Below are positions 3,629-50,243 of a stretch of DNA of 64,000 nt, piece by piece. How positions within the stretch are numbered: the stretch's first letter is position 1; each line of letters starts with the position of its first letter. Source of the DNA: Mytilus galloprovincialis (Eukaryota > Mollusca > Bivalvia > Mytilida > Mytilidae); the NCBI RefSeq assembly GCF_965363235.1, contig NC_134851.1, forward strand, positions 35,368,321-35,432,320, given 5' to 3'. The notes under the pieces are model-generated. The model saw only the letters and a list, made by a program, of their open reading frames with translations, did no database searches and was not told the origin of the DNA. A program made the position numbers and the translations under genes.

Positions 3629-4063
3629 ATTTCCATAGAGGAAAAACATTTCCTTAAGGGAAATTTGATGTTCAGAAATTTCCCTAGAGGAAATTTGAAG
3701 ATCAATGATTTCCCTAGAGGAAATTTGTTGTCTTGAATTTTCCTCCAAGGAAAAGTGTTTGTCAAAAATTTCCTCACAGGAAAAAGTATTTCCTCCAAGG
3801 AAAATTTGAAGCTATATATACAAATTTCCTCACAGGAAAAAGTATTTCCTCCAAGGAAAATTTGAAGCTGCAAATTTCCTCAAAGGAAAAAGAATTTCCT
3901 CTAAGGAAATAGAATTTCCTCAAAGGAAATAATTATGCAGCAAATTCCCTAAGGGAAATCTTTTTCCCTTGAGGAAAAAAACAATTTCCCTTGAGGAAAA
4001 ATCTTTTTCCTTCAGGGAAATTTGATTTCCCTTGAGGAAAAGTACTTTTCCTCTGAGGAAATT
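3629..4063. repeat. Array of about 18 short palindromes, TTTCC-N5-GGAAA
   Basis: Eighteen self-complementary units of about 15 bp (for example TTTCCCTAGAGGAAA, TTTCCTCCAAGGAAA, TTTCCCTTGAGGAAA) lie at irregular 12-45 bp spacing. Spacers differ, though a block of about 65 bp including AATTTGAAGCT is duplicated around 3780-3870. The centres vary while the arms co-vary to stay complementary, so this is not a simple microsatellite. The 83-codon minus-strand frame across it is a by-product of the repeats. Confidence 0.9.
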
Positions 4064-5349
4064 GTTGAAAAAAGGGGCATAACTTTTTCAACAGTGGTGC
4101 TAGATCCAAAAAATTTTAGGACAAATATCAGGGAACCAATACCAACCAAGTTATCAACTTTGTTTTGACTTAACTCCAAAAATTAAGGTGACAACTTTTG
4201 CACTCAGCGGAATTGCAAACTTGTCCCGGAGACTGTTCTTTACTCAATAGACTTACTGCCTAGGCGTTAGCTTATTGCCTAGGATTTAAGCTTAATGCCT
4301 AATTTCACTTATTGCCGCTAACATATTTATATTATATTTGATTTTTCATTTTTTTTTTCTGTTTTGCTCTACGACTTCTCACTTTCTGCAATCATGTCGG
4401 CAGATGAATATATCCTTCCATTTACATTTTGAACGATCTCATCTTTAACGTTTTAATCAACTACATGTATTTCTGTTCTTTATAAATTGTTGGCCCTAAA
4501 TATTCAGCTTTGAGCGTTCCTGAAGAAGGTAGATCCAGAACAGCGCTTGAGTCGTAAATTTTAACATTTTGTTTTCATTTTTTTATCGATTGCATGACGA
4601 TCATGTGTATTGTCAAGTGAATCATGATTTCAGTTCTAAGTATTGGTACGGTAGGAACACTGAATTTATGATGTCGCAATAAACGTTGTGACGTTGCGCA
4701 CGATATTGGTGTCACTTTGGAAATATGGGTTAGAAGGCGGGTTATTCAAATTCAAGCTCTTATCATAAACAATAAATAGCCATGTTATGCATATCATTCG
4801 AAAGGAAATAAACCATAGAAATCAATAACATAAATGATTTTGTGCTTTGTCTATATTTTAATGAAAAACTTTGCTCATTTCGATGCCTATATATAACGTC
4901 ATTTCAAGGGTGTCCCGCTGTTACAATTTTGTTTAATATGCGTCTTTGAAATCCCAGTGCGGATTCATTAGTTAGTAGAATGATTTAAAATTTCACAACT
5001 ATATTGTACACATTTAACGTTACTCTCTTTAAATAAATGTTTAACTGTAAGTGAAAAAAGATCGTCAGAAGAGTTTAAATAAAAAAGAGAAAAAACGTCC
5101 AAATTACATTTTTTGTAGCTGCTCAACCCGTAAAAAAACTTTCTGTCTTCACTTTCATAAGATATAACGGACGAAAATCGGTTTTGGTAATATTAGAAAA
5201 AAATATACATGTACCGAAGAAGTTATCTGAAGTCATCATTAGGTAACTGCGGTCTTTTTTTAAAAATATCGTCATTTTTCCCGTGTCCAATAAAATGTCC
5301 CTATGGACAAAATAACACGAAGAATAATTCAGAGGCTTTTTATCAAACG
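4064..5349. other. Non-coding flank of the 6-kb inverted-repeat element
   Basis: No gene seen. It holds a family I fragment at 4497-4556 and three loose copies of a TTANTGCCTA word around 4245-4300. A stretch near 4690-4715 reads GCGCACGATATTGGTGTCAC, and recurs in reverse orientation near 37930. The 84-codon frame at 5123-5377 (minus) is not recognisable. Confidence 0.55.
4497..4556 (+). repeat. Family I interspersed repeat fragment
   Basis: The segment with GAGCGTTCCTGAAGAAGGTA and AGAACAGCGCTT matches, in reverse orientation, 40796-40870 (AGCGCTTTTTCTGGATCTAC, then TTCATCAGGAACGTC). I recall variants of this sequence as common in mussel genomes. Confidence 0.6.
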
Positions 5350-5355
5350 AAATTC

Positions 5356-6250
5356 TACGGAAGCCGATAAGGGCCATTCAAAAAAAAAAAAATTATGTCG
5401 TAATTACGACATAGCATGTCGTAATTTCGACATAACATGTCGTTATTACGACATCGCTATGTCGTAATTTCGACATAACATGTCGTTATAACGACATCGC
5501 TATGTCGTTATTTCGACATAACATGTCGTAATAACGACATCACTATGTCGTTTTAACGACATAGCTATGTCGTAATAACGACATCGCTATGTATATAAAA
5601 GAATGTGTATTATGATTGCCAAGACACTAAATGACACAAAAATTAACAACTATATGTTATCATAATGCCCCCAATAGTTAGAAAAGCCCCCGCATAGTCA
5701 GCTATAAAAGAGGGACGAAAGATACCAGAGGGAGAGGCCCCGGAATGCTGTGTGGCATACAGTGTTAACATTAATTAATTATTAGCTCCCTTGGTAAAAC
5801 TCCAAATTTCATATTTAAAGTATTTCATTGTTGATTAATTTACATGATGCTTAATAAGTATATATTTGTTAATTGCATATCTTTTGCTATTTGAATTCAT
5901 TGGTTAAAGATATTTATTCATATTGTAAAGTTTAATATTTGTATCGTTAGTCAACTTCTTTGGTTACCTTCTGTGAGAAACTTATATAATTTATAGATCG
6001 TATTTAAGTCCTTCAAGATACCGACCGTGGAAGTGATGCAGAGTCAGTCAAGGTCTTATAAATCTTCTACTTGTTCGAAAAAAATATGTGTGGAATTATA
6101 TGAGGATTGACATACAGTCCTACCTATAAACAAACTCAAATTACATGCCTTCGTGTTATAAGGGTGAATTGAAATATTGATTGCTCTCTTTCGTGAAATA
6201 TTGATTGCTCTCTTTCGACTTTCAAACGTTGGACACGATGTTGCTACAAG
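5356..6250 (+). repeat. Left arm of the 6-kb inverted-repeat element
   Basis: From outside in: the TACGGAAGC terminus, an A-rich run, nine ATGTCGT/ACGACAT palindromes, a section resembling family A (ATTATGATTGCCAA, then TAGTCAGCTATAAAAG), the GGGACGAAAGATACCAGAGG segment, then AT-rich sequence. The match to the right arm is strong up to about 6005 and weaker but traceable to about 6250 (ATTGATTGCTCTCTTTCG and CACGATGTT on this side). A 24-bp tandem duplication of GAAATATTGATTGCTCTC lies at about 6170-6215 and is absent from the right arm. Confidence 0.85.
5395..5584. repeat. Array of nine palindromes, ATGTCGT-N4-ACGACAT (left arm)
   Basis: Nine 18-bp units such as ATGTCGTAATTACGACAT and ATGTCGTTATAACGACAT sit 2-5 bp apart, almost end to end. 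The central four bases vary among AATT, TATT, TATA and AATA, while the outer heptamers are nearly invariant. Each unit can pair with itself and with any other unit on the same strand. Confidence 0.95.
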
Positions 6251-8269
6251 CTTTAGGATTTAAAACAGAATTTTCGAAATTTCATCCGCAAAACAATATA
6301 AAAATGTTAGAAAACACGAACCAATATTAAAACAAATTCAATATATGTTTCAAATTATGTTTATACAGCTCTTGATCATATATAACTAAGTAATATCTAG
6401 TATATTTGATGATTAGATTAGCAAAGCTATGTGAAAAAAACCGGATGTCCAACGTTACATTTATGAAAAATTGTTTTAAATCTTATGTATAGTGATCCTA
6501 TTTCTTATTCTCTGATCTTCTTGATACTTGGCAGGAACAACGACAGGTGTCGGTTCTTTGTGGCGTTAAAGCCGTTATTTTTGCCAAATTTTATTTGACT
6601 CGGTAGCTTCATATTAAGCGGGAATAAGAAAAATGTCCAACGACGTTTTTCGTTATCTCAACGACTGAAAGTGAATTTTGTAAGTAGCAGAAAATGAATA
6701 AAAAGAGTAAGACAATAATAATATCTAACAAAAGTACAAATATTTGCCTCATTGTTCGTGAGTTCAAATATTGCTGATTCAATAAAATCTTCTCTACACA
6801 GTCATTTTTCAAACGGTAGCCGTTTCGTCCAAGTTGATATTTCATTTTTCAAAGCAGTTAACGCGTATTTTTTATAATTAATCAAAACAAAAGTTAGATA
6901 CACGAAGAGTAAAAAATGCCAAGATTCCTTTCTTATTAACTACATGTTTGGGTCTTAAAGGAATAAAATGCTTCCACACATTACAAAACAGTAGCCAATT
7001 TGTCCAAACGTCGAAAGTTCGAAAGACGCTAATTTCCGTCGTTACATGTGCTAAAGTTTCAATTAAATGATCATGATAATTAAAACAAATCGTGTTATGA
7101 AATTTGGAAAAAACAGGTTGATGATTGCTGCCGGAAAAAAAAGAATAGCGCATGTTGCTATAGACTGCACCCGGGGACATAGGTTAGACACAGGTTAAAT
7201 TTTGTAATTTTTATTAATCGTTTATAGCTTTTAACGATTTATTTAAAAGAATGGTGAAATGGGGGAAAACACTTCGTCCAACTTTTGCAAAGACAAATTT
7301 TAGACACCAAGACAGTCCTCTAAATGTTAAATTCGAATTGAAATTTATATTGTGGAAGTACTCCATAGATCATTTAAAGTCGTCACTTCAGTAAGGTGCA
7401 ATCACCAATATTAAAAGACTTATACCAGTTCACGGAGTGTTTTACTTCGCGATTTGTCCTGCTATTCATGTTATAACTGTCGTGATGAAATTAATTCCTG
7501 TACTAGCGAAACCGGAACTTTTCGTCAATATAAACTTGTGCATGAAATTGAGGTACTAGTAATTGAAAGACAAATCCCAAACAGCGACGAAAACCGTTTC
7601 ATCGAATTTTAAAAACCCGGGATTATTTAAGCCGTTTTCGCGGACGATCCAGGAGTAGATTACTATATTTTAAAATGTATATCAGAAATTAAACACTATA
7701 GATGACTTGCGCGGAAATAATTCTCAAGCCAAGGTTCAAGTAATTGAAGGGGTGTATTTCGACAACTTATGTACCAGGGAAAATACAATTCTATTCAAAT
7801 TTAACCAAGGGTAAAAATGTTCGATTTACTTGCAGAGTGTCAGATATATTTGTATTGGGGTTAAGTTAAATTTTACAATGACAGATAGCTAGATGATATG
7901 CACCTTGAAAGTTAAACATCATATGATAAAAGTTTCGTACATCTAAAAAAAAATATCTTTCTTATGGAAAACTGTACCACATCTTCCTATATCTACTTCC
8001 GTCCCATCTTTCTTTCCCACATTACTTGCGACAGTAATGCATTTTTAGTTGAAATAACTTAAAGGGTAAACATTATTAAATAGATTTCCACAACTTGAGG
8101 TAATTTATGATAAAATGACATCACAAAACGAACAGAACCAGAATCAGAAATTTTAAAAATTTTGTAATATAATAAATAAATCAACCAACATATAAAAAAA
8201 AACAAATAAAACTTGCAAAAATTAATCAAAAACCCTCTTCGACGCGGCTTTTTATGTGTAATGTCGTGT
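6251..8269. other. Interior of the 6-kb inverted-repeat element
   Basis: No transposase signature or long open frame is visible. The minus-strand frames at 6609-6845 and 6878-7180 (78 and 100 codons) and the 130-codon frame at 8059-8451 have no motif I recognise. The last runs from the interior into the right arm, and the matching left-arm sequence is not open, which argues against a real protein. Confidence 0.5.
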
Positions 8270-8640
8270 TTTAGGAACATCGTGCCCATTGTTTGATAGT
8301 AAATACAGAGCAATCGATACGTCCAATCACCCTCATGACAACAAACCATGGAGTTGTGCACTTCTTTAATGAGAGGTGGAAAGCTTTGTTTGCCTTGATA
8401 GGACTTCAGGTCAGTCCTCATAGTCCCCGGTCGGTTACTTATTACGCGCAATCAGGATCTATAAAATATATAAGTTTCTCACAGAAGGTAACCAAAGAAG
8501 GTGACCAAAGATTTTGCGACGATACAAATATTAAACTTTACAATATAAATAAATATCTTTAATCAATGAATTCAAATAGCAAAAGCTATGCAATTAACAG
8601 ATATATACTTATTCAGCTTCATGTAAATTATACTGAAATG
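8270..8640 (-). repeat. Right arm of the 6-kb element, inner piece
   Basis: In reverse complement this matches the left arm: GTTTCTCACAGAAGGTAACC here pairs with GGTTACCTTCTGTGAGAAAC on the left side, followed by matching GAATTCAAATAGCAAAAG and GTAAATTATACTG runs. Similarity fades gradually between about 8400 and 8270. The arm stops abruptly near 8640, at the junction with the 2.3-kb inserted stretch. Confidence 0.8.
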
Positions 8641-9496
8641 CAGTCGACTTTAGCGTTTGATAGTTCATTGATAACATTTTGGCGTATCACAAACAAACAA
8701 CTTGTTACGTCTCATTTCATTGGCCGAAAGATTTAAATACAACAACAATGTAATAAGTGTGCACGTGAATTGACACAGGTGACCGACAGTGGAATTTACT
8801 ATGTTACTACGAACGTAAAAACAATGATTTGTATAGTTTACAAACCTTTGGTCAAAAGAAATAAATAAATGTTTTATTAACTTCAAAAAGTGGGGTCGAA
8901 ATATTATACTGATAGTTATTAACTTCAAATAGTGGGGTCGAAATATTATACTGATAGTTTGTTTTAACATAGATGTAATACCATCTATGGTTTTAAGTAA
9001 TATTCTAAGTTCTTTGCATGCAGCAACTCAATTATCTTGTACCCGGCATGATGAGAAATATAAGGATAAAATAAAATACATGTGCCGCTTTTATACGGAT
9101 GAATATATGAACCACTTTTAATTTCTTTCATACTGACGATAGGTTATAATCCTAACAATGTCGTAGTCACTTATAATAAGTATCTCATAATACTGATCCA
9201 TTACAATCATTAATCAGTGGTTGCACTGACATTCCTCTTTTATTATTTTCATGCACACAGTACAAAAATGTAGCTAAAAGCGTACCATAAACGGAGGAAA
9301 TTGCCCCCCAAAGATAGAAACAAAATAACTTTAATCGTATCATTGGTGCACCTGAATGAATTCAGTGAAGGCATGTTGTTGTAATAAATTGAAATGTTAC
9401 ATCGGCGAAGATTATTTCTTATGCATGTGTGGAACTAAATAATAAATTAATACTTGTGAGAAATCGTAGTTTATAAGGAACAATTCTCTTGTTTGA

Positions 9497-9642
9497 ATTC
9501 GGGGCCTTTTATAGCTGACTATGCGGTATGGGCTTTGCTCATTATTGAAAGCCGTAAGGTGACCTATAGTTGTTAATTTCTGTGTCATTTTGGTCTCTTG
9601 TGGATAGTTGTCTCATTGGCAATCATACCACATCTTCTTTTT
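9497..9642 (-). repeat. Family A interspersed repeat (SINE- or MITE-like)
   Basis: Reverse copy with the diagnostic order GGCCTTTTATAGCTGACTAT, CATTATTGAAAGCCGTAAGG, GTTGTTAATTTCTGTGTCAT, GTTGTCTCATTGGCAATCAT. I remember this family as among the most abundant short repeats in mussel transcripts and genomes. I see no clear RNA polymerase III promoter, so SINE status is not established. Confidence 0.85.
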
Positions 9643-9944
9643 TTAAATATAAATGTACTGTTTTCGATTTTAAATGGATGAACATTTATCTTTCAATTTT
9701 ATACTGTAAGAATAGAGCTGCATAACATTGTTGAACTTTCCGCTAAAGTATATGTGGTATGTATTCGTATTTAAAATAAAATGCAAAACGAAACGTGTAT
9801 GATAAACTGATAAACAAAATATCAAGAAATTAAGGATGACTAAATGCATGCACAAGAAGAAACTCACCTTTCTATCGATACATTTGAATGATTTAATGAA
9901 TAAACACTTTTTTAAAAACTGTTTGTGTCTATTTACATAGATAT

Positions 9945-10135
9945 AGGAGGATGTGGTGTGAATGCCAATGAGACAACTCCCCATCCAAATAACAATTTAT
10001 AAAAGTAAACCATGATAGGTCAATGTACGGCCTTCAACACGGAGCCACTGAACAACAAGCTATAAAGGTCCCCAAAATTACTAGTGTAAAACCATCTAAA
10101 CGGGAAAACCAACGGTCTATAAATATTTACACTAT
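9945..10135 (+). repeat. Family B interspersed repeat (SINE- or MITE-like)
   Basis: Shares its first part with family A (GATGTGGTGTGAATGCCAAT, GAGACAACT) and then diverges: AACAATTTATAAAAGTAAAC, GGCCTTCAACACGGAGCC, ACTAGTGTAAAACCAT, AACCAACGGTCTA. Near-complete head and middle; the distal third is missing. The best comparison copy is at 51581. Confidence 0.85.
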
Positions 10136-10949
10136 ATTATTTACGTTCGTTTTTCAACCGAGAATAGCAAAACCTAATGAAGTATATCGTTGGAGTTTAT
10201 AAACTACATTTAATCATCCCCTGTGCAATGATTGGCCATCTCCGTTTTTTCTTAACAAAGCATAGTTGGTTACATGTTATGAATTTACTTACAATTTCGG
10301 GATTTTTTTTTTCTTCAAGTAAACGGAATCAGAAAAAAATCGCTATCCTATGTCGAATACATAAAACTTGGAAAAGAATATGAAGTGTTTGTAGAAAAGT
10401 ACGGTTTCATTTTTCAAGTACAACGTTAATTCATGGAGTCCATTGAGTAAAAGAAAATCCAGGATAAGCAAGGGGGGAGGAAAAAATGAAAAAATATGTG
10501 AATTGAGTTTTTTTTTTTTATCCTACATTGAACTTTTGATGTCGTCCCTTGATCTAGAGGAGACATTTAAATTGAATATTTAGATGTGAAAACTGTTAAG
10601 ATTTTAAAGTTTAAACTTTACTACCAATTGCAGAAAACTATAAAACCAATGAATTTCACATGCACATTTATAAAAGCTAGAATTGTGATTGGAATCATGT
10701 ATGAGAATATGTCGATGGAAGCTTTAAACGACCTTGACCAGATAACATATCGTGAATATTAATCAGTCCATTCAACGTTATACTATGTGTGTTCTATTTT
10801 CGAAGGTGTGAGGTCGAAGGTTTGAATTGACCAATGGAAACGATCGTTCCTTAGAGAGTTAATCTAATAAAGTTTGTTTGACTGATTACGTCGCACTTCC
10901 TTTCGCTAAGCTAAGCCGCATATGAGTGTATTTAACAATGAAATACATT

Positions 10950-11383
10950 AAATATGAAATTTGGAGTTTTACCAAGGGAGCTAATAATTAATTAATAACA
11001 CTGTCTGCCACACAGCATTTCGGGGCTCTCCCTCTGGTATCTTTCGTCCCTCTTTTATAGCTGATTATGCGGGCTTTTCTAGTTATTGGGGGCATTATGA
11101 TATGACCTATAGTTGTTAATTTCTGTGTCATTTAGTGTCTTGGCAATCATAATACATATTCTTTAATATATATAGTGATGTCGTTATTACGACATAGCTA
11201 TGTCGTTATTACGACATGTTATGTCGAAATTACGACATAGGGATGTCGTTATAACGACATGTTATGTCGAAATTACGACATAGCGATGTCGTTATAACGA
11301 CATGTTATGTCGAAATTACGACATGCTATGTCGTAATTACGACATAATTTATTTTTTTTGAATGGCCCTTATCGGCTTCCGTA
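10950..11383 (-). repeat. Right arm of the 6-kb element, outer piece
   Basis: Mirror of 5356-5815: AAATTTGGAGTTTTACCAAG, CTCTGGTATCTTTCGTCCCT, a family A-like section, the palindrome array at 11178-11345, a T-rich run and the terminal GCTTCCGTA. Immediately outside lies the AAATTC duplicate of the left flank. Confidence 0.9.
11178..11345. repeat. Array of eight palindromes, ATGTCGW-N4-WCGACAT (right arm)
   Basis: Eight 18-bp units with the same outer heptamer as the left-arm array. Most units carry AAATTACGACAT or TTATAACGACAT halves. Unit number and centre order differ from the left arm (eight against nine), so the arrays have changed independently since they were copied. Confidence 0.95.
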
Positions 11384-11389
11384 AAATTC

Positions 11390-12565
11390 TACTTTATCTC
11401 AAATTTATACCACCTGTTAAATGATATGAATGAACAATACATTTAATTTTATTTAAAGTGATATGATATGCACTTTTGTTTGAGTTGCATGTAGAAAATC
11501 ATAAACGATCTAAGATGTCCAATGACATGTCCCCGTAACCGTAATTTGACGTTCGCGTTATAATAACGTTAAACTGTATACGACTTTTCCTTCATATTTG
11601 GCATAACATAATTTCATGAAATGGTCTGATCTATATAAAATAAAGTTCTCGTTTAATATGTATTAAAATTCAGATCTGCATTGTTTCAAGGATATAAGAT
11701 GTCGAAATAGTTTACTCGGATACTTCATAAAGACAAGACCCTAGAGCTATAACAAAGAGAAAACTTACCAATGACAACACCCCCACTTTATAAAAGCAAG
11801 ATACATGTACATTGAAAAAGAAAATTCGATCAAAAGTGAGATCTTTTTTATTATCGTCCTCAGCCAGATAGGATCTGTAATTCCTAGCGTTGCTATTAAA
11901 AGATTCGAAGCTATACACATGAATGAAAAAGTACTCCTTAGTCGTGAAAATTTCAGTAAAACGTTCAATGACATTTTTGGCTCATCGACTCATTTAACAA
12001 AAAGTTTTATCAGAGAAATACTCGTATGTCATAAAAATTTCATTATAGCTAACGGTCATTTTTTTATCTACTGTTAGAAGAACAATCCCTAGTCATGATT
12101 AGCAATATGTGTATGAAAAATAAGGTTATAATAAAATTAAGAATGGAAATGGGGAATGTGTCAAAGAGACAACAACCCGACTTATAATATTACATTTAAA
12201 AGAAGTGTGGCAGAATTAAGTTTATTTTCTCGAATCTCCAACCAAATTGCCTGGTAGATAGGCATGTGTAGCAACTAGCTCCAAGGTATTCATTTACAGA
12301 CACTCAAAACCCATTCGAGAAAACAAATCAACCAATCAAATCTGTTGTGTGCAAATTATATTTTTTTTTGTAAAGTAGATCTTTTGTTATCTTCGCAGAA
12401 CGCCACAAAACATAGCTTGAATATTGATTTTTACATCGCAATGACCGTGAGGGCATTCCGATGTATTGTTGTCATAGAGATTTGACTTTCGTTTTTGACT
12501 GGTAACCGATCGTATAAATACGCCGATATCATGATCATCGATTGTTATAATAATAATAATAATAA
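11390..12565. other. Non-coding stretch between two inverted-repeat structures
   Basis: No gene seen. The frames at 11712-11974 (minus) and 11805-12077 (plus) overlap one another and carry no recognisable motif. It includes a 54-bp family D fragment at 12130 and an (AAT)n run at about 12546-12566 immediately before the next repeat arm. Confidence 0.55.
12130..12183 (+). repeat. Family D interspersed repeat, 5' fragment
   Basis: Begins ATAAAATTAAGAATGGAAAT and ends at GACAACAACCCGACTT. Only the first third of the family is present. Confidence 0.75.
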
Positions 12566-13220
12566 TCACGGCTGGTAATCTACACACGCAGAACATTTGG
12601 TTCTGCAATGAAAACCGTGAGAGGATTTTCCGGTTGTGCTTGAGTGTAGCTGAATTGTCACCGCTTCAAAAGGTATGTATATTTCTAAATCTCAATGTTT
12701 ATATTCAACTGATCAAAATATTGAAAATCATAGAATGCTATGGTGTGGTGAATACTTTAACGAAGAGATACATGTATCATTTACTGTTGTACGTAGAGTT
12801 GAACTCCTACAAAACCAGTTGCCCCACGAGAAATTGCCTAAAAAAGTAACATTTCAATTTTGAAATGGTTCTATTAACAGACCTACAAGTTCAAATTTAG
12901 GTTTTTGTTCGGGCAATGGGTATGAATGTTGTTTTTGGCGGCGTGTTCGCTGTCTGGGTTGATAGACGTCTTGATAATTCCAAAAACTACATTTGTTCAT
13001 TAAGTCATGCGTGAAGGGATCGGTTCTGATTGAGGAAATCGTGATTGCGTGAGGGGAAGTACAAACATTTTTTTTAATCTTTGGCTTTGAGACTTTTGTT
13101 GACTCAATAAATGTGATCAATGCTGATTAAAAGCACAGATTTATCCTTATACTTTAATAGATAAAAACTGATCACTGATTCAATGAAATCAAACTTTTTT
13201 AATTGTTTGTTCAATTTCAG

Positions 13221-13321
13221 AAAATGCCATTGTTCAAAGAGAAAAGGAAAAGAGGACTGAAATTGCCTCTCTACAAAAAGCCATGGAAATACAAGTTATC
13301 CCTGCCCTAGAAGAGAACTAA
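13221..13321 (+). CDS. Candidate 3'-terminal exon of an unidentified coiled-coil-like protein
   Basis: A good splice acceptor (a T-rich tract, then TTCAATTTCAG ending at 13220) is followed by an open segment closed by TAA at 13319-13321. With two bases completing a split codon, it reads about 32 residues: NAIVQREKEKRTEIASLQ, then KAMEIQVIPALEEN. The charged, heptad-compatible composition suggests the end of a coiled coil. It lies in the part of the left repeat copy that the inverted copy lacks, so it may be a captured host exon or the last exon of a gene carried by this repeat. No upstream exon is identified. I do not recognise the protein. Confidence 0.35.
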
Positions 13322-13670
13322 ACCCTCTGGGAGTAATCATGTCGTCAAATATTAGTCACTAGGGTCACCACATATATTTAAGAAAAATATATCGCCGATC
13401 AAAACTTCAACACCTACACATGTATATATATTAGACGTAATCTGTTCACCCAAATCACGAAATTTTCGAAACAAAAATGGCAGATATACAGAATTAACAC
13501 TGGACACTTTTAATTTGCAAAACACTCATTTGCAAATCCGCCGCCGCCTCAAACAAGAGCTACAATATCATGTATACAACCAAAATGTGCGGAATTACAT
13601 GGGATTCAATAATTTCATTGGTTTTATACTGTTACTTTCATATTTATTTTGCAATTTGAATTATAAAAAC

Positions 13671-13875
13671 ATGGGATTTTCAATATCCCATGGGACAGGG
13701 CAAAATCCCATGGGATTTACCATTATCCCATGGGATTTTGGTTAAATCCCATGGGATTTTTTTTGGTCCCATGGGATTATTGTTGTCCCATGGGATATTT
13801 GTTGTCCCATGGGACAAAAAAAATCCCATGGGACCTTAATTATCCCATGGGACAAAATAAAATCCTATGGGATTA
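13671..13875. repeat. Array of about ten TCCCATGGGA palindromes (left copy)
   Basis: Ten units of the self-complementary decamer TCCCATGGGA, usually extended to ATCCCATGGGAT, at spacings of 14-22 bp. Spacers such as CAGGGCAAAA and TTTACCATT are conserved, in mirrored order, in the array at 30103-30326, so the two arrays descend from one. Confidence 0.95.
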
Positions 13876-13882
13876 AAATTAT

Positions 13883-16102
13883 AAATATATATGTATATAT
13901 AAATATAAAGTTATGTGTATGTTACAATGAATGCTGTTTGGTAGTAAAATGTTTTAAATGTATACGAGTTTTTTTTATATTTTTTATATATACATATATA
14001 TAATTTTTTTTAAATTTTGTCACAAACATGTTTTTTATTTGTTTATATGACAATAAAGATTATTCTTATTTTGGAATGTATAATAATAATATTTTACAGT
14101 CAAAGAATAAAGTCCTTTCACTGAAACAAAATGATGAAATTTCTAAATAAATGAAAAAATATTGTTTTGAAATCTTTGTCTTGTTTATTCTATTATGATA
14201 AATAGAACTGAAAAAATATTTCATATTCTGACTGAATAGTTCACTCTTTTCATGAGGTAAGATTTTCTTTGTTATAGGTTCATTGCAATACTTGTATAGG
14301 CAAACGATTTGAATTATAATATATAACTTTGTGGTGTACATAATAGTATGCTTATATTTGCAAATTTATAATATAAACACTTTTTGTTAAAGTTTTTGCT
14401 TTCTTTATTCACAACTTGCTATGTACAATTATTCAGTCCACTATATAAGAGTGAAGTCAATAAATAATTTCATTCACTAGAATATTCCTGCAATTCTTAG
14501 ACAAAACATTTTTTCAATCTGTTCTTCAAAGATCTTCCTCTGTACATCTTTATTGAATCGAGAGATTCAAATGAGAAGACAAAGCAAGTTTATTTGGACA
14601 ACAACATTCTAATATCTTGTTCATTCGTTCCATCTTTCAATTGATAATTACATTGTTGTATTTATATGATCAAGTTCTTGTGCATCAATGATCGTGATGA
14701 TATGATTCCTTTTTGTTTATAGTCATCATGTTGAAATTTCCTCTTTCAAATAAATGTAGGAAAAAACATGTTCCATTTCAAATTAATAAAAAAAGTCGCA
14801 CTATGGAGAAAAATATCAGCTTTAAGTTTTCCGTTCAGTATTGATCTGTGAATGATGACCATGAAAATCCAGATTTCTGACCTACAAATACACAAACTCA
14901 AAAATATCAGTGAAGAGATCAATAAAATGGCTATTTTATCATGTTTATGATTAATATGATAAACTTTCATTTAAATATTCAAGTACTAAATTACAGAAAT
15001 CGCTTAAATTTTATAATAGTTTAGTTAAAGTACAGCTTATTTAAAATTATAATAAAAAATATAGGCCACCGTTGAGTTAAATAAGATATTACATTTTTAA
15101 TGCCAAAAAATGGCATTTTTGCACCAAAGGGAGATAATTTGGAGCTTTTTCAATGATATATGCATTTTAAAAGTCATCTGGGGCCAAACCAAATTGATTG
15201 TTTTGAATGATTTGGTGTACCATATGATAAAGATATAAATAAATTGAGTTATGAAAAAAAAATATTAAAACATTTTTCTGAAATTGTTATACCCTAGAGC
15301 CTCCTTAAATGTCATTTGATCTCTATTGGAGAAATGTCTCATTGGAAATCAGACTGCTAAGTGTTTCTTATTTTTATATCAACCCAGCCATATTATACCT
15401 GTCTAATATCAGGAGCTTGTACATAGTTCAGTGGTTGATGTTGGTTCATACCCGTCATTTTTATTTTTCATAATTTTTTGTTTTTATAAATTAGTCTGGT
15501 ATATTTGATGTTTGAATTGATGCTCTGTTTCAAATTTGGTTAGTGTTGACTTTTATAGATTACTATAACATGTATAGGGTATGGGTTTTCTCATTACTTA
15601 CAGGTCATCAATGGCCTCTAATAAGTAATTACAATGCTTACATCCACTAAATTGAACTCTGATGGATAGTTTTCTCTTTAATCATACCACATCTTATTTT
15701 AATAAATATTTAATTATCATTCAAGGACAAATTTTTTTATAACAGTGGACTTACCATTTAGGCTTTGTTGACCTCTGTAAATCTTATTTTGTTGATAATT
15801 TCTTCTGTTTATAGTTTCCCCTTTATCTTTCATGTTCTTGCCCTACACATAAAAGGGTAAACATCATTCAATGACAAAAATAACTACTACATGTATTACA
15901 TAATTAGTAGGCAACTGAAAATTTTGTCTTATTTGTATATAACATCAACTTGCTCATCATTCTTGCTGTTCAATATCATGAATATTATCATTATTCTATG
16001 AATATGAGGTCACAGTAAAATTAACCTTGGCAGGCAGACATATTTTTTTATTTGATACCTTGTAGTCATTCCATACAACAAGTAGACATATGCTTAAAAA
16101 TC
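13883..16102. other. AT-rich non-coding stretch
   Basis: No gene seen. The frames at 13809-14003, 14066-14341 and 14746-14970 are low-complexity or unrecognisable. It holds a strongly diverged family A copy at 15575-15695 and a shorter family A-like piece near 15320-15350. Confidence 0.55.
15575..15695 (-). repeat. Family A interspersed repeat, old diverged copy
   Basis: GGGTATGGGTTTTCTCATTA, TGGATAGTTTTCTCTTTAAT and CATACCACATCTTATTTT preserve the family order in reverse, with an internal insertion around the GTTGTTAATTTC section. Confidence 0.5.
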
Positions 16103-17720
16103 TAAGGCCAAAATTAAAAATATGTTTGTTTCCCCTCCCCCACACGGGTCAAAAATAAGCGCCCGGGTCAAAAAATTATTTTCCACAAAAAAATCGAAAT
16201 CATTTTTTTCCTGAAAATAATTTGTTTCCATTTTTGGAAAGTGCTTGAAAGCAGAAGGATTGATAATCTAAATAAATACACTCAAATTGAGCACAAACAA
16301 CTGATAAGTGGCCTGGACTGGACAAGTCAAACCATTCATGTGACCATGCTATGACAATCACATCCAGTTAAAAAAAACTAGAGGCTCTCAAGAGCCTGTG
16401 TCGCTCACCTGTTAATGTGTTTACTGATGTCGGCCATCTTCGTTGGTAGGCGGGGTCATTAGACACTTTTTTTTTAAATAGATACCCTAGTATTATGATT
16501 GTGGCCAAGTTTGGTTAAATTTGGCCAAGTAGTTTTAGAAATGATTTTTATACAAGTTACAAAAATGACGAAAAGTTGTTCAATATTGACTATAAAGGGC
16601 AATAACTCCTTAAGGGGTCCTCTAACAATTTTGATCATGCTGACTTATTTGTAGATCTTACTTTGCTGAACATTATTGCTGTCTACAGTTTATCTCTATC
16701 TATAATAGTATTCAAGATAATAACCAAAAACTGCAAAATTACTTTAAAATCACCAATTTTAGGGCAGCAACCCAACAACAGGTTGTCCAATTCAACTGAA
16801 AATTTGTGAGGGGATATATCTTATTCTGATGGACATTTAAATCTTGAAAGATTTGCCCTTAATGTCTTAGTTTCAAAGATATAAAGCAAAACCTGCATTT
16901 TACCACTATGTTCTAATTTTAGCCATGTCGGCCATTTTGTTTGGTAGGCTGGGTCAGCGGACACATTTTTTAAACTACAAACCACAATGATAATTGTGGC
17001 CAAGTTTGGTTAAATTTGGCAAAGTAGTTTCAGAGAAGAAGATTTTTAAAAAAGTTACAAAAAATGATGAAAAGTTGTTAAAAATTGACTATAAAGGGCA
17101 ATAACTCCTTAAGGGGTCGACTGACAATTTTGGTCATGTTGACTTATTTGTAGGTCTTACTTTGCTGAACATTATTGCTTTTACAGTTTATCTCTATCTA
17201 TAATAGTATTCAAGATAATAACCAAAAACTGCAAAATTTTCTTAAAATAACCATTTCACAGGCAGCAACCCATCAACAGGTTGTCCGATTCGTCTGAAAA
17301 TTTCAGGGCAGATAGATCTTGACCTGATCAACAATTTTACCCCTGTCAGATTTGCTCTAAATGCTTTGGTTTTTGAGTTATAAGCCAAAAACTGCATTTC
17401 ACCCCTATGTTCTATTTTTAGCCATGGCGGCCATCTTGGTTGGTTTGACAGGTCACGCCACACATTTTTTAAACTAGATACCCCAAGGATGATTGTGGCC
17501 AAGTTTGGTAGAATTTGGCCAAGTAGTTTCAGAGGAGAAGATTTTTGTAAAAGTTTACGGACGACGGACGCAGGACGACAGACGACGAACGCCAAGTGAT
17601 GAGAAAAGCTCACTTGACCTTTCAGGTCAGGTGAGCTAAAAAAAACCTGCCTTCCTGGTCTGTTTACAAAGGGTAGACCCGGGGGAGGGGAAACAGACAT
17701 TCTTTTAAATGTGGCCTGAT
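16103..17720. repeat. Inverted pair flanking the 500-bp-unit repeat
   Basis: AGGCCAAAATTAAAAATATG, then TTTCCCCTCCCCCACACGGG (16103-16150), is mirrored by GACCCGGGGGAGGGGAAACA and the downstream AAATGTGGCCT (17678-17720). The pair encloses the repeat at 16379-17637. It may mark the ends of an older element that received the 500-bp-unit repeat, or two inverse copies of one repeat. Confidence 0.55.
16379..17637. mobile_element. Bivalve interspersed element with tandem units of about 497 bp
   Basis: Begins with a short hairpin (GAGGCTCTCAAGAGCCTG) and TCGCTCACCT, and ends with AGCTCACTTGACCTTTCAGG and AGGTGAGCT, so CTCACCT is inverted at the termini. Inside, GATTGTGGCCAAGTTTGGT recurs at about 16499, 16994 and 17493, giving two full units and a partial third. 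The run TAAAAAAAAC lies just outside both ends and may be the TSD or simply A-rich target preference. I recall this repeat as widespread in oysters and mussels. The 164-codon minus frame at 17242-17736 is only the repeat read backwards. Confidence 0.8.
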
Positions 17721-18060
17721 AAAATGACAAAACCAAGAAAACTTATCATTGACCAAAGAACAATAAAATGCGGTCATGGTTTATATATGAATCTGCCATT
17801 CAGACATGCACACCTTACAATTGTTTCATATCTACCAAATATAATCTACCTGTAACTTTAAACATATGATAAACTGACAAAACAATGCAGTGTTTCATTG
17901 ACCAATGAACCATGCATGAAAATGTGGTCAAGTTCATATAAAATATGACAGACAGCTAAGTGCATCTTACAATTATTTCATTCACTAAACAAAGGGGCCT
18001 TATTGCTTACAATATCCGGAAAATAGACCAAACCACAAAAACTAAATATTTTCAAAGTTC
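17721..18060 (+). repeat. Two diverged units of a 148-bp tandem repeat
   Basis: CATTGACCAAAGAAC (about 17748) and CATTGACCAATGAAC (17896) start units 148 bp apart. Each continues with AAAATGNGGTCA, a CAGACA word, CTTACAATT and TTTCAT. The family resembles a common mussel tandem repeat containing GTCAAGGTCA; these units are degenerate. Confidence 0.6.
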
Positions 18061-18282
18061 CTTATACCCTGCCAATTTGTTATGGTTGTGCCTGTTCCAA
18101 GTCAGGATCCGATAATTCAGTGATTGTCGTTTGTTTATGTGTAACATATCTGTTTTTCAATTTTTTTGTACATAAATTAAAGCACAATACATTTGTACAT
18201 GAAACACAAAGCTCATCACTGAGATAGTAGTCTCAGATAGAGGGAGGCGGGGTCAACCAAACTCCCCTATTCAATCTGAATG

Positions 18283-18953
18283 CAGGACAGAAAGTCACAG
18301 TCAAAAAGTCACACACTGTCACAGGACAAAAAGTCACAATTTAGTTTTGAGATTATTTTTCTTTGAACAAGAAAACACTCTTTTTGTATTTTTCTTGAAG
18401 TTTTATACATGAACATGATGTAGCAACTTTTAAATTAAAATTTATTAAAAACAAATAAATCAGTGCATTAGGTTTGCGCACATTACCATTACATTTGCAC
18501 ACAAAAATCATTACGTTTGTGTGCAGCTTTTGATTACATTTGCACGCATTTTTTAACATGTAAATATAAAAAAAAAGATATAGTATGATTGCCTTTTACA
18601 GCTGACTATGCGGTATGTGCTTTACCTCGGGCTTTGCTCATTGTTGAAGGCTGTTTGGTGACCTAGGGTTGTTAATGTCTGTGTCATTTTGCTCTCTTGT
18701 GGACAGTTGTCTCATTGGCAATCATACCACATCTTCTTTTTTATATTATGAACAATTTCCTAAAATTAAAAATGAATATATGTAATAAAAAGAAGATATT
18801 TCAAAATCTTTTTTCATTTATATTCAATCAATTGTCAACAAATTGTTTGTGACTTTTTGTCCTATCAACTTTGTTACTTTATGCCTGAGTTTGACATGTG
18901 TTTGACTTTTTGTCCTGTGACTTTTTGTCGGAATGTCCTGTGACTTTCTGTTC
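18283..18953. mobile_element. Foldback element with GGACAAAAAGTCAC arms
   Basis: The left arm holds AGGACAGAAAGTCACAG, then CACAGGACAAAAAGTCACA. The right arm holds the mirror words GTGACTTTTTGTCCT, TTGACTTTTTGTCCTGTGAC and CCTGTGACTTTCTGTTC. The arms themselves consist of repeated GACAAAAAGTCA words, which are near-palindromic. A family A copy (18589-18742) lies between the arms. No protein; the 68-codon frame is incidental. Confidence 0.7.
18589..18742 (-). repeat. Family A interspersed repeat
   Basis: TTTTACAGCTGACTATGCGG, TTGCTCATTGTTGAAGGCTG, GTTGTTAATGTCTGTGTCAT and GTTGTCTCATTGGCAATCAT in reverse order. It contains an internal repeat of GCTTTACCTCGGGCTTTGCT. It lies inside the foldback element above. 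Confidence 0.85.
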
Positions 18954-20504
18954 GTTTACCTTCCATCTAAATCAGTGAACTGAATAATTGTTTTTTGCAG
19001 AAGTCCGGGGAGTGTTAAAAAATCACATGTGCAAGTTGAGAGTCAACACTTACACAGGGACTACTACACAATACTTTTTCAGAATGTCAGCAAAAAAGAA
19101 TCACTGATGACAGGGGAGTGTAACCGATGAATTGATCCTGAATCAGATAAGATTTTACCGGTACGTCTAAACACCGCTCAGGAGGACCTCCTGGGTGCAC
19201 ACATGCAGGACATACAAAGTGCACTCATGGCAGACCCTATGTAGTCGCCGTCGTATCTGCACACATGATGGATGTATATATTCGTTATAGATCGTCATAC
19301 ACTTCTCATTTTAGAGTTAAATTTGCAAGCAACCTCTTAAGATTTTAAAATAATAATGCTACTAAAAATATATTATTTCCCCCAATTTTCGCAATTTTTT
19401 CGCAATATAAAATATTTAGGCGACTGTGCTTTTAGTGAATATAAACGATTACGAGGCCTCACGAATAAATATAAATATGAAATATACTGGAACATCGATT
19501 AGCATAGATCGAGCAGCAGAGTAAACTTCCACATAAATCTCGAAGTTATTTACGCCGGATAATATAGACTGTGCTCCTGAATAAAGTTGTCAAATACATT
19601 AATTTGTGTTTTTTACTTCTACAAGAAATTTGATTCAAATGCTAATTACGCACCATTTGCTGAGCAGAGAATCATTCTAAGCCAGGAACCGTCTATACTA
19701 ACTGATAACAGTAAGAATAGAAAGTCTCTGTAAAAAGGCAGTCAATCCTAACAGAACTGTATTAACTTAATGATACATGTACATCAAGTTCCAGCACCTC
19801 ACCAAGCACCCTTGCCTTGCATACTGAGATGGCAAACTGGTGTGTGTCAGTATTTTAATATAAAACTGCGTAGGTTCATATCGTTTGATTCAACGTTTGT
19901 TTGGTTATTTTTTAAGGATCGTTGTAAAATTATATCTAAATCTTTGTTAAAATACGATTTTAAATTGTTCAATTCTTTCTTTTTCATAATTTTGTCAAAG
20001 TCTACTTTTTAAAGTTTTAAATTTTACAGAAAAAATGAATATTCCATTTTGATTTGAAGAAAATCTTTTTGAACTGTCATGACATGGTGTTGCAAAGCTG
20101 ATTACAGGTAACTATAACATACAGTAATTTTCCATTTCGACAGTGCGTGTATTCTCGGGTGTGTATAACGTATAGTTTTCTAGAGAACATCCTGTCTACG
20201 TGTAATACAGATTGATGACATTATGCAACATTTCTTTGGTTAAATGTGATAAGGTATCTGTGTCCATTCCCTATTTCAACACCACTAATTTTTCGAAGAA
20301 AACAAATCGAAAAAAAATTTATATGAAATTAAGAAGAAAAGTAGCAAATATAAACTTCAGTAATTGCGCATTGAGTAAACATAATTCCAATATTGCATGA
20401 ACAAATCCGTGAGAAAACGTATATATACATGTATGAATAAAGATGTGTTTTAAAAGACCTATTGGCATTATTTCACACTAGGACCTAAGATAACTAGAAC
20501 TAAG
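18954..20504. other. Non-coding stretch with a solo transposon arm
   Basis: Besides the arm at 19159-19330, nothing is recognisable. The 80-codon frame at 19770-20012 and the 62-codon frame at 20212-20400 lack motifs and have the AT-driven composition of their surroundings. Confidence 0.5.
19159..19330 (+). repeat. Terminal-arm copy of the GGTACGTCTAAAC element family
   Basis: CGGTACGTCTAAACACCGCT, GGACCTCCTGGGTGCAC, ACATACAAAGTGCACTC and TTTTAGAGTTAAATTTG match the left arm of the complete element at 22256-24035. No inverted partner is found nearby, so this is a solo arm or a truncated element. Confidence 0.75.
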
Positions 20505-20615
20505 CAATGGTTGATCCAGAAATTTTCATAAGTGTGGACTCATTGACTGCCTTAGAGTGTTCACGTCCAGTCATGCTTCCGTGATTCCCTATATAATCTA
20601 CCATTTGTTTCCAAA
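20505..20615 (+). mobile_element. Family E short inverted-repeat element, truncated
   Basis: CAATGGTTGATCCAGAAATT, TTTCATAAGTGTGGACTCAT, CCAGTCATGCTTCCGTGATT and CCCTATATAAT follow the order of the well-preserved family E copy at 42380-42503 (inverse). The left TIR is present and degraded; the right TIR is lost. Confidence 0.65.
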
Positions 20616-20662
20616 GATTTAGGAGGGGGCTGGTACACACATATATATATAAATATACCTCT

Positions 20663-33078: not shown

Positions 33079-33856
33079 TCAAGATAGCTCATGTAATATG
33101 TAAGATATCTCAATTAATATATAAGATATCTTCTATAGTTTCATTTACATAAGATGTCTTATATATTATATGATATATCTTATATATTATATAAAATATC
33201 TCATAAGTTTATTAGAGATCTAATAAAGTATATGAGATATCTTATAAATATCTTTTATAATTTACAAGATATCTTTTATAATTTACAAGATATCTTTTAT
33301 AATTTACAAGATAAAGAAAATTATATAAGATATCTTATAAACTATATATTTTATAATATATCTTATATACTTGATAAGATATCTCCTAAAGTTATTAAGA
33401 TATCTTATCAAGTTTATAAGATAGTTTATAAGATATCTTATATAGATTATAAGATAGCTTTTAAGATATCTTTAAGATATCTTATATAGTTTATGGGATA
33501 TCTTATAAAGAAAATTATATAAGATATCTTATAAACTATATATTTTATAAAATATCTCCTAAAATTATTAAGATATCTTATGAATATCTTTCATATAAGA
33601 TATCTTATACACAATACATAGTTTATAAAATATCTGATATAGTTAATAAGATATCTCATATAGTTTATAAGATATCTTATATAATCTATAAGATATGTTA
33701 TATAAATTATTAGATATCGCTTATATTTTATGAAATTCTTTTAAAAATTGTAAATTTCATAAACTTTATAAGATATCTTATATAATCTGTAAGATATTTC
33801 ATATAATATCTTATAGACTATACAAGATATCTTATAAAGTGTATAAGATATCTTGA
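33079..33856. repeat. Field of AAGATATCTT palindromes, about 780 bp
   Basis: The decamer AAGATATCTT, usually extended to TATAAGATATCTTATA, recurs dozens of times with AT-only spacers of 5-25 bp. Two blocks (around 33305-33360 and 33505-33560, ending ATATATTTTATAA) are near-identical, showing segmental duplication inside the array. The 111-codon plus frame (DIFYNLQ repeats) is a by-product. The array stops sharply at a non-repetitive GC-containing sequence near 33860. Confidence 0.95.
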
Positions 33857-35182
33857 AATTAAATTAAATAGCAAAATGGCTTGCCATATAAACCAATGAA
33901 AAAAAATCATCCATTTGGTATTTTTTCAACAGGTCATCTTTATAAGTTTACCTTGATTAAAATGGATTTCAAATTGGTCCATTGTCGTATTCAGAAAGAC
34001 AATTACAAAAGTTTATATGCTTAATAGATAAGATATTTAAAGCAATTGACCAGTGAACTTATTAAAATTATTTGGAAAAATTGTAGATTTCATAAATAAA
34101 TAAAAGAATATTTGAAATTAACTTAAAACGATTTATGCATGCGCCGGAAAGTAATTCTCAAAAAGGTGATGGTATTCTAAACAAGAAGAAAGGATCATTT
34201 TAATAACTTTTGAAACAGTTCCATATTAAATGGTGACATATCGTATTTCATGAATGGTCTAATCATCAACATTATTTTTCAAAAACGCTCAAACTTTTGT
34301 CTTTTGAAGAAATAGAGCAAAATATAAAATAATTTATTTTCATCAAATTATATAACCATGCAGCTCTTCTGGGCGATCTGCTTTTGCGAGATCGGCGCCC
34401 ATTAAAATGGATTCATCAATATTATATCAAAATTTGAATTTGCTCTTAGCCGAGGTCTGCTTTCACACCAATTTTGACAAACATGTTTTTGATCAACCTG
34501 CTAGGCGATCTACTTTACGAGATCAAATAATCCCATAACATTTTAATTAATTGAATCCGGCTTCTAAAATTGTTTACCACATGTTAACATAATCATAGAT
34601 ATCTATGACATAATCAAATCGTCCACTAAAGTCAAAATATAAGACACTTCATAAACATCTATACTTTGCCTATATTTTTCAAACTATAACGAATAAAGTT
34701 CTAAACTTTTCCGGAAATACCAATTCTTATTTTATTTTCATGAATTGGGAATTTATATTCATAAATATTTTTTGGGGGCCGCTGGACGATTTTAGGGCCG
34801 CCAAGCGGCCCTAAACTATATAGTAGAATCATCCCTGCAGTCCATAGTTGTTCGCTTGAGAAAACATTGATCCACGTGAACATGCACATATAGCAATTAC
34901 TTAAAAATACACATCTAGTAAAATAAAAATAGTTGTATTATTCAAAATCGGATTTCGACCTGCTGGTAGTCTGCGAGGTAAGTATTGGTCCGTGTAAGAG
35001 TTTTCCATACTTTTGCAAATTCTATAATTTCAAACATTATAAAAAGTATTGATCGCCGACCATTTTTTGAAGCTTAAGTTTGTGAAAAAAAATACCAGCT
35101 GAAAGAATAGCTCATAAAATATGTTTCCGAAAGCAAAAACAAAATAATACAGAATCACCGTTCTCATTTTCATAATAAAGTA
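33857..35182. other. Non-coding stretch
   Basis: No gene seen. GGCGATCTGCTTTTGCGAGATCG (34374-34396; shown here in parts as GGCGATCTGC and TTGCGAGATC) is a short hairpin that recurs in degraded form near 34504-34525. Another hairpin, GGGCCGCCAAGCGGCCC, lies at about 34794-34810. Neither resembles a terminator or known RNA. Confidence 0.45.
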
Positions 35183-48286: not shown

Positions 48287-48485
48287 AAAAAGAACATGTG
48301 GTATGCTTGCCAATGAGACAACTGTCCACAAGAGACCAAAATGACACAGACATTAACAACTATAGGTCACCGTACGGCCTTCAACAATGAGCAAATCCCA
48401 TACCGCATAGTCAGCTATAAAAGGCCCTGATAAGACAATGTAAAACAATTCAAACAGGAAAACTAACGGCCTTATTTATATATAA
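48287..48485 (+). repeat. Family A interspersed repeat, best full-length copy
   Basis: AGAACATGTGGTATGCTTGC, CAATGAGACAACTGTCCACA, AGAGACCAAAATGACACAGA, CATTAACAACTATAGGTCAC, CGTACGGCCTTCAACAATGA, CATACCGCATAGTCAGCTAT, AAAAGGCCCTGATAAGACAA and AACTAACGGCCTTATTTATA. This copy can serve as the reference for the others in the window. Confidence 0.9.
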
Positions 48486-49169
48486 AACAAAAATGAACAA
48501 AAAATCAGTTTGTTTATGAATTTTTAGTCTGAATATTCCTCTGGTATCTTTTGTCTTCAATGTATACCTAAACACTGAATATTCTAGGCACATTTTACGT
48601 TAATGAAACTCGTTCAAATTCGTTAACTTCCGTCAAATTACGAATCAATATTCACAACCTTGTTTCAATGATAACGTGACTTGGCAGATCATAAGGTACA
48701 CGTGACATTGACCTGATATGGGGAATCAGAGTAAAACCATAATGACGTGACCTTGACATCGGTTAGCTTACCCCCCAGTGGAGGACTCATTACCTAATTA
48801 TCAAATGTCAAGAGCATGTTAAAACTACTTCAGTCTGGCAATTTACTAGGATTCCGTAATATAATTGCGGTCATACATACTTGACTTAAGTACAAAATAG
48901 TATTGATGGAAAAATGTGTGTTGCAGATAATAAAACAAATAGTGCAGGCCGCCATTTATAAGCGTATCACAAATTTTTCAGATTGTTTCCCGAAAGAAAT
49001 ATTTTAACATTATAGAGTCTAATGATATACTATACTGATTTTCATACACTTTAACAAAATCAAATTCAAATTCATCAAATGTAAATGTTTACTCAGCGGT
49101 TAATATATATATACATATTCAGGAAAGGCAATTAATATATTTACGTGTTTAACAATAACTGTAAAACAA
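48486..49169. other. Non-coding stretch
   Basis: No gene or repeat family recognised. The words CGTGACTTG, ACGTGACATTGACCTG and GACGTGACCTTGACATC near 48675-48765 recur loosely but form no clear unit. Confidence 0.45.
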
Positions 49170-50243
49170 TGTTGTAACAACGTAGTAGTCTGACACTGGA
49201 TCAACGTTGTAACAACATTGAATTCTGATGTTGTAACAACGTTGAAGTCTGACATTGGATCAACATTGTAACATCGTTGAAGTTTGACACGAAATAAACT
49301 TTGAAACAACGTTGAAGTTAGACGTTATAACAACGTTGAAGTCTGACACGAAATAAACGTTGTAACAAGGTTGAAGTCAGACGTTGTAACAACGTTGAAG
49401 TCTGACACTAAATAAACGTTGTAACAAGGTTGAAGTCTGATGTTGTAACAACGTTGAAGTTTGACACTAAATAAACGTTGTAACAAGGTTGAAGTCTGAT
49501 GTTGTAACAACGTTGAAGTTTGACACTAAATAAACGTTGTAACAAGGTTGAAGTCAGACGTTGTAACAACGTTGAAGTCTGACACTAAACAAACGTTGTA
49601 ACAAGGTTGAAGTCTGATGTTGTAACAACGTTGAAGTCTGACACTAAATAAACGTTGTAACAAGGTTGAAGTCTGATGTTGTAACAACGTTGAAGTTTGA
49701 CATTGGAACAACGTTGTAACAAGGTCGAAGTCTGACGTTGTAACAAAGTTGTAACAATGTTGAAGTCTGACGTTGGATCAACCTTGTAACATGGTTGACC
49801 TCTGATGTGGTAACAATGTTGAAGTGTGACATTGGATCAACAATGTAACAACGCTGAAGCCTGACACGAAATAAACGTTGTAACAACGTTGAAGTCTGAC
49901 ACTAACTAAACGTTGTAACAAGGTTGAAGTCTGACGTTGTATTAACGTTGAAGTCAGACACTAACTAAATGTTGTAACAAGGTTGAAGTCAGACTTGTAA
50001 CAACGTTGAAGTCTGACACGAAATAATCGTTGTAACAAGGTTGAAATCAGACGTTATAACAACGTTGAAGTCTGAAACGAACTAAACGTTGTAACAAGGT
50101 TGAAGTCAGACGTTATAACAACGTTGAAGTCTGACACGAAATAAACGTTGAAAAAAAGGTTGAAGTCAGACGTTGTAACAACGTTGAAGTCTGACATGAA
50201 ATAAACGTTGTTACAAAGTTGAAGTCTGACATTGTAAAAACGT
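49170..50243. repeat. 59-bp satellite of about 18 units containing CGTTGTAACAACG palindromes
   Basis: AATAAACGTTGTAACAAGGT or a close variant lies at about 49411, 49470, 49529, 49588 and 49647, an exact 59-bp period. Each unit is bipartite: ACGTTGTAACAAGGTTGAAG then TCTGATGTTGTAACAACGTT then GAAGTCTGACACTAAATA. The half-unit TTGTAACAACGTTGAAGTC suggests that the 59-bp unit arose by doubling of a shorter one. The core GTTGTAACAAC is a perfect odd-length palindrome around one base. Units near both edges are more diverged. Minus-strand frames of 60-80 codons (SDFNVVTT words) are by-products. Confidence 0.95.

Follow-up and report, generated by a model that had tools for sequence, protein, structure and literature searches.

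Palindrome arrays in a 64-kb window

The DNA analyzed here, hereafter the window, comprises 64 kb of the Mytilus galloprovincialis genome (contig NC_134851.1, positions 35,368,321 to 35,432,320) in which several short palindromes are each repeated as an array, three of the array classes belonging to the ends of DNA transposons that we designate families A, B, and C. The genome searched for related copies comprised 1.385 Gb in 331 contigs. The window is ~68% A+T, and no open reading frame (ORF) of at least 200 amino acids, no Rfam match at gathering score, and no tRNA gene was found within it. From left to right, and with no strand assigned to any of the arrays, it holds 17 palindromes of the form TTTCC-N5-GGAAA at 3630-4061 (family C); two ATGTCG-N6-CGACAT arrays of family A, the left one (5395-5584) having 9 units spaced at 21-22 bp and the right one (11178-11345) 8 units; two TCCCATGGGA-type arrays of family B, with 10 palindromes spaced at 19-21 bp at 13686-13872 and 11 palindromes at 30105-30310; a AAGATATCTT-type array in an element D at 33102-33854, where neighbors are often 21 bp apart; and a minisatellite, class 5, at 49165-50246, which is not assigned to an element in the window.

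To recover arrays irrespective of their motif, the 64 kb were scanned for 5-bp arms that contained G or C, had a gap of 0-6, and occurred identically at least four times per 300 bp. The scan yielded nine rows, all at the seven array places listed in the initial annotation, and no other row; the five palindrome arrays that had been described in a 47-kb span were thus recovered independently. Thirty dinucleotide shuffles of the window, run at each of three thresholds (the lowest being three copies), returned 0 rows. In a cruder scan with all palindromes pooled, only two 250-bp windows rose above the mean plus four standard deviations, and because pooling showed so little, the array signal is that of one palindrome repeated rather than of palindrome density.

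Inverted-repeat transposon ends of families A, B, and C

The arrays of families A, B, and C are fixed parts of inverted-repeat transposon ends: they are found at a defined distance from both ends and move with elements that leave target-site duplications (TSDs) of 6 bp (A) or 4 bp (B, C, and a further family, F, described below). The initial annotation had placed two of the five classes in inverted-repeat arms; the location in arms held, but the count is three, the partner end of the TTTCC class lying outside the window.

The family A element (5356-11383, no strand assigned) is 6028 bp long, with ends TACGGAAGCC..GGCTTCCGTA and the TSD AAATTC on both sides. Family A arrays begin 38-39 bp inside each end (39 bp at the left and 38 bp at the right in the window copy). 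By eye, TSDs were exact in all three copies for which both ends were read (AAATTC, CATGTT, and GTTGTC), and the window copy, like two others, has the ends TACGG..CCGTA. Two other family A copies lack the window stretch 8631-10929 (2.3 kb), within which a repeat at 9499-9643 has inverted matches at 23099, 48286, and 60289. The ATGTCGT pattern occurred at 1954 + 1966 places in the genome versus 0 for reversed controls, and 12 of the 16 first listed whole clusters (here and for families B and C, all on contig C1) had a partner at element length, as judged by distance; in the family A search itself, 40 of 770 candidate places were scored and 85 matches were listed. According to the available text of PMC10045372, elements of the IS3EU superfamily have TA..TA ends and usually a 6-bp TSD. 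Family A likewise has TA..TA ends and a 6-bp TSD and, judged by its ends, would fit IS3EU, from which it differs in that no transposase was found in the A pieces searched and that palindrome arrays go unmentioned for IS3EU in that text (PMC10045372). ORF pieces of the window copy reach at most 130 amino acids; two pieces were searched in Pfam, one giving no match and the other sub-threshold matches only.

The family B element (13496-30500, no strand assigned) is 17,005 bp long, has the ends AACACTGGACAC..GTGTCCAGTGTT and the TSD AATT, and carries its left array beginning, and its right array stopping, 190 bp from the respective end. It interrupts an element E, the left half of which, with a CACGGCTGG end, lies at 12567-13495 and the right half at 30501-31533 (both plus strand), the first four bases of the right half being the TSD of B. 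The uninterrupted site, present in 15 of 19 further fetched copies of E (the remaining four are without that region), shows that the insertion of B duplicated 4 bp (AATT). A second pair of family B ends lies 26 kb apart with the duplication ATAT. Of 448 candidate B ends, only the best 40 were scored; they were 99-100% identical over 178-180 bp, so that at least these 40 spread recently. A search for the TCCCATGGGA neighboring-site pattern found 3291 places versus 0 for the reversed control, and six of the seven first listed whole clusters paired at 16-20 kb with their spacers in inverted order. Each 19-21 bp slot of the B arrays contains a palindrome; the B units were therefore not hand-picked. 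In the window copy and loci L010-L028, element E itself has CAC ends and, in 12 of the 17 copies with both ends read, an exact 5-bp TSD, features reminiscent of Transib or RAG-like elements. Across 19 loci no palindrome array was found within E, the single row (in L015) belonging to B. The nesting is reciprocal, with B inside E in the window and the E copy in L015 lying in an inverted repeat that belongs to a different B element.

Of the family C element the window contains the right-hand part (203-4237, plus strand), with AAC..GTT ends and a 4-bp TSD, the left end falling before the window. The sharp end at 4237 was common to all 20 fetched loci (the window's own included) and has the array 176 bp inside it; window positions 276-440 were missing from two C copies compared (L071 and L072). 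When the terminal 145 bp were searched against the genome, inverted partner ends were found ~15-25 kb away, which is the length of the element elsewhere in the genome. TSDs, again read by eye, were exact at 4 bp in 12 of 14 end pairs and agreed at 3 of 4 bases in the other two, and the 12 exact ones comprise several sequences, none of them TTAA. The TTTCC pattern was present at 1796 genome places versus 0 for the reversed control, with a partner at element length, as judged by distance, for four of the seven first listed whole clusters.

Ten ORF pieces, which cover only parts of the elements, were searched in Pfam and gave no match at cut-off, with neither a transposase nor a binding protein among them. 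The best match, just below cut-off, was a reverse-transcriptase fragment (RVT_1) at window positions 1-315 on the minus strand. The pieces searched, covering only part of B and C, contained no TNPD/TNPA-type proteins, and the same ten pieces gave no match to DNA polymerase B, integrase, ATPase, or capsid genes. Given the lack of coding capacity in the parts read and of any Pfam match at cut-off, the copies read are probably non-autonomous. No autonomous copy was found, although for family A no search aimed at one was made. No phage relatives of window positions 12500-20000 were found.

Family F, spacers, and the remaining arrays

Family F was found via one TCCCATGGGA-pattern pair that had the palindrome of B but different spacers. 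It has the end AACACTGTGCGGGACAAATTTGCC, the TSD ATTA (one pair), an inverted repeat of ~290 bp as far as read, and the palindrome TTCCCATGGGAA; its end resembles that of C, and its palindrome is the 10-bp palindrome of B. In an ungapped comparison of the first 45 bp, F and C were identical at 32 positions, B and F at 27, and B and C at 21, identities that were reached by 0, 0, and 14 of 10,000 shuffles, respectively. All three families have AAC ends and 4-bp TSDs, with TTTGC at position 19 and GCAAA at position 37 common to their ends; the array is offset from the element end by 190 bp in B, 177 bp in F, and 176 bp in C, and B and C are ~15-26 kb long. From the similarity of the ends and the likeness of the offsets it follows that B and C are related; of the arrays in B and F, it is the palindrome that has persisted. 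The related ends, together with the common TTCC/GGAA, further suggest that the C palindrome may go back to the TCC/GGA half-site of B and F, the gap being 5 rather than 4.

Spacer identities were calculated on true spacers for A, B, C, and F and on 8-bp windows for D and class 5. The units of B were 0.98 identical, while their spacers matched at 0.34-0.42 versus 0.33-0.37 expected from composition, and B and F spacers matched one another at 0.32 versus 0.35 expected; the palindrome has been retained between these two families and the spacers have not. The contrast was moderate in C (spacers 0.37 versus 0.31 from composition), where the units were chosen by their arms. Because the spacers of A are only 3-4 bases long and non-random (0.35-0.66 versus 0.30-0.32 from composition), with a two-unit rhythm, the spacer argument is inapplicable to that family. 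Spacers also exceeded composition in the D array (0.54-0.58 versus 0.39) and in class 5 (0.58-0.84 versus 0.33). The description of arms as kept and spacers as variable in all classes therefore applies cleanly to B and moderately to C, but not to A, D, and class 5, which keep their spacers more than composition predicts. Likewise, it is doubtful that all classes are unrelated in sequence, since the families with TCCCATGGGA and TTTCC-N5-GGAAA have related ends, and the view that only self-complementarity is shared is partly wrong, B and F having a palindrome in common and C a similar half-site.

Among 20 C copies, variable columns were found at 6 of 170 arm positions versus 36 of 431 positions in centers, spacers, and terminal sequence (p = 0.049), and variants common to at least 3 of the 20 copies numbered 0 in arms versus 10 elsewhere (p = 0.07), a pattern that is no more than suggestive of arm conservation. 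Palindrome centers were spaced at 21-22 bp in A, 19-21 bp in B, mostly 19-22 or 30 bp in C (exceptions 36 and 48), and mostly 21 bp in F (exceptions 53, 29, and 19), corresponding to two or three helical turns; as units were partly duplicated in blocks, these numbers are not independent and no p value is given.

Element D (32631-34837, plus strand) is ~2.2 kb long and bounded by CAGGGATGATTCC../..GAATCATCCCTG in other copies, its left end in the window being slightly altered. Copies start with CAGGG and finish with CCCTG, and by eye a 5-bp TSD was exact in 8 of the 11 copies with both ends visible, among them the near-identical segments L058 and L062. In the remaining three copies, the flanks agreed at 4 of 5 bases in one, matched at six bases in another, and did not match in the last. 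Elements of the hAT superfamily have CAG..CTG-like ends and TSDs that are usually 8 bp and in some 5-8 bp, with which the ends and 5-bp TSD of D may be compared. Thirteen of the 20 fetched D loci (L049-L068) lie on contig C11, and L056/L057, like L058/L062, are near-identical segments. The D array occupies ~470-1220 bp from the left end, and two of its three AAGATATCTT Tandem Repeats Finder rows were not more palindromic than composition (unit shuffling, p = 0.57 and 0.27). Class 5 is a 59-bp minisatellite with 24/35/59-bp steps, the unit of which contains CAACGTTGTAACAACGTTG; GTTGTAACAAC recurs in 11 exact copies at 49171-50182. In a genome search that skipped very common words, its only full match was itself, and L093-L095 have in common an edge, CCCAGC[GA]GGCA, at which short related arrays start. 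The arrays of D and class 5 probably arose secondarily, as minisatellites that expanded out of transposon sequence. That they differ from A, B, and C bears out the caution, given with the initial annotation, that a common mechanism was an inference.

A sixth palindrome class, TAGAACTG..CAGTTCTA, is absent from the window and was seen in the flanks of fetched loci (L002:2451-2697, L040:1105-1284, and L065:3554-3649). It has 1532 candidate places in the genome and begins ~50 bp from a sharp TACAGTGG edge; the element is possibly Tc1/mariner-like. At L055:3419-3604 a tandem array has a palindromic unit of 35 bp, and window positions 62125-62426 hold a non-palindromic minisatellite, in which a 51-bp unit recurs about six times and several reading frames are open.

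Candidate binding-site arrays and rival explanations

We consider it reasonably probable that the palindrome arrays of A, B, and C provide, at the ends of DNA transposons, phased sites to which a dimeric transposase or accessory protein binds. Each palindrome would be a two-fold-symmetric binding site, and an array with units recurring about every two, in places three, turns of the helix would allow several dimers to load on one face per end, where they may mark, pair, or silence the ends of the element. The palindrome would differ among families because site and protein diverge together; TCC/GGA seemingly serves as the half-site throughout the AAC group, the gap measuring 4 bp in B and F but 5 bp in C. 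Several observations weigh against this reading. Neither a binding protein nor a transposase turned up in the ten ORF pieces; element E transposes without such an array; the array in D is confined to one side, and that of class 5 does not border an element within the window. The spacers of A are too short and too similar to display the contrast between palindrome and spacer, those within F matched at 0.48-0.49 versus 0.33, several units being recent copies, and the arms of C are only slightly less variable than the remainder (p = 0.23 against spacers alone). The phasing values are interdependent through block duplication of units, and homogenization between units could also keep palindromes alike.

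The arrays could instead have grown by slippage or template switching at short palindromes and be merely carried by transposons, an explanation that we regard as unlikely. It would account for C arrays that differ among copies by 20 bp, or about one unit, for the additional palindromic arrays in flanking DNA, and for the resemblance of D and class 5 to ordinary minisatellites; some copying of unit plus spacer is in fact evident in A, C, D, and class 5, and is indicated in part by the spacers of F. If such copying were the general cause, spacers should be duplicated together with the units and most tandem arrays should be palindromic, yet the spacers of B were not copied with the units and stand at composition level, B and F have the palindrome in common but not the spacers, and palindromic units were a minority in flanking arrays. 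In the control (107,413 flank bases of 64 loci, with four window copies excluded), 3 of 16 tandem-array rows, several of them mutual copies, had a significantly palindromic unit; the window, a stretch chosen for its arrays, has 7 such rows of 10. The agreement of the array offsets across B, F, and C also argues against growth of this kind. Of what the initial annotation suggested, the location at transposon ends is borne out for at least three classes, and the generation and spreading of hairpins by a copying mechanism is unsupported as a general cause.

It is quite unlikely, in our estimation, that the palindromes serve the element as enhancer, silencer, or insulator sites, bound by regulatory proteins of the host and not by the element's own transposition proteins. 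Dimeric host factors suit palindromic sites, and the location in both ends and a site common without its spacers would appear identical under that explanation, but a palindrome that differs by family, and a half-site gap that differs between related families, are more easily explained by co-evolution with the element's own protein. Very improbable is an origin as foldback-type ends, with the arrays being internal repeats of long inverted repeats maintained by recombination between copies and having no binding role. Long inverted repeats containing internal repeats were observed, and those of Galileo are similarly long and internally repetitive; in the available descriptions of the Galileo and Tetris foldback elements palindromic units are not mentioned, and this origin leaves unexplained why the palindrome was kept and the spacers changed.

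Known superfamilies were compared with B, C, and F. Polinton/Maverick elements have a 6-bp TSD and genes for DNA polymerase B, integrase, ATPase, and capsid, and this identity was rejected for the 17-kb B element on the length of its TSD; the 4-bp TSDs (12 of 14 C pairs exact) do not agree with it for C and F either. piggyBac and Kolobok elements target TTAA, which is absent among the 12 exact C TSDs. CACTA/En-Spm elements have CACTA ends and a 3-bp TSD, in place of the AAC ends and 4-bp TSD found here. The sharp, one-sided end of C had raised the suspicion of a Helentron, which was dropped in view of inverted partner ends ~15-25 kb apart and of TSDs; Helitrons and Helentrons have no TSD and no long inverted repeats, as partly documented in the available text of PMC4067079.

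Repeated subterminal sites that proteins bind are described for other elements. In the accessible portion of PMC2613891, plant CACTA elements (En/Spm and Tgmt*) are described as having many short, family-specific subterminal motifs within a few hundred bp of their ends; TNPA recognizes those of Spm/En, and those of the 20.5-kb Tgmt* can form 2 palindromes on the left and 12 on the right. B, C, and F resemble them in carrying subterminal motif arrays with palindromes that vary by family, and differ in their AAC ends and 4-bp TSDs, as does A with TA..TA ends and 6 bp, from the CACTA ends and three-base duplication (PMC2613891); moreover, every unit here is a tight palindrome in a regular array inside the inverted repeat. 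The hAT element Hermes, as far as PMC10368747 is available, similarly has repeated subterminal sites, bound by the BED domains of the transposase, with one pair forming a quasi-palindrome that is bound cooperatively, whereas its sites are short, in a mostly non-palindromic arrangement, and form no regular palindrome array. The transposase of IS1535 (IS607 family) binds as dimers, in a cooperative manner, to subterminal motifs that are helically phased, and a filament results (PMC6188088, available text). The helical phasing is shared with the arrays described here, on which dimer loading is inferred, but IS1535 is a bacterial serine recombinase element without terminal inverted repeats or a TSD (PMC6188088). 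The available descriptions of KolobokP and coral CMITEs contain no comparable palindrome arrays, and no report of regular palindrome arrays at the ends of several animal transposons was found among the titles and abstract openings screened, a coverage that excludes most subscription papers and Repbase. Tentatively, and with considerable doubt, we propose that B, C, and F may form an undescribed superfamily of giant (~15-26 kb) elements whose ends would be recognized via a helically phased array of palindromic operators rather than by terminal sequence alone, with specificity altered by the half-site gap; the IS3EU-like family A would have acquired the same end architecture independently.

The best-known arrays of subterminal binding sites are those of plant CACTA and of hAT elements. 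Here, the units are tight palindromes, the arrays are visibly regular and at fixed offsets, and they occur in several transposon families of one genome. Families B, F, and C provide a natural series in which the surroundings changed and the site was kept, and they pose the question of how a transposon alters its recognition site while keeping its partner protein. The combination of a palindrome array with paired ends is a search key for giant gene-less elements, which may vanish when tandem repeats are stripped from repeat libraries, as was done in one bivalve study (PMC10294476, available text).

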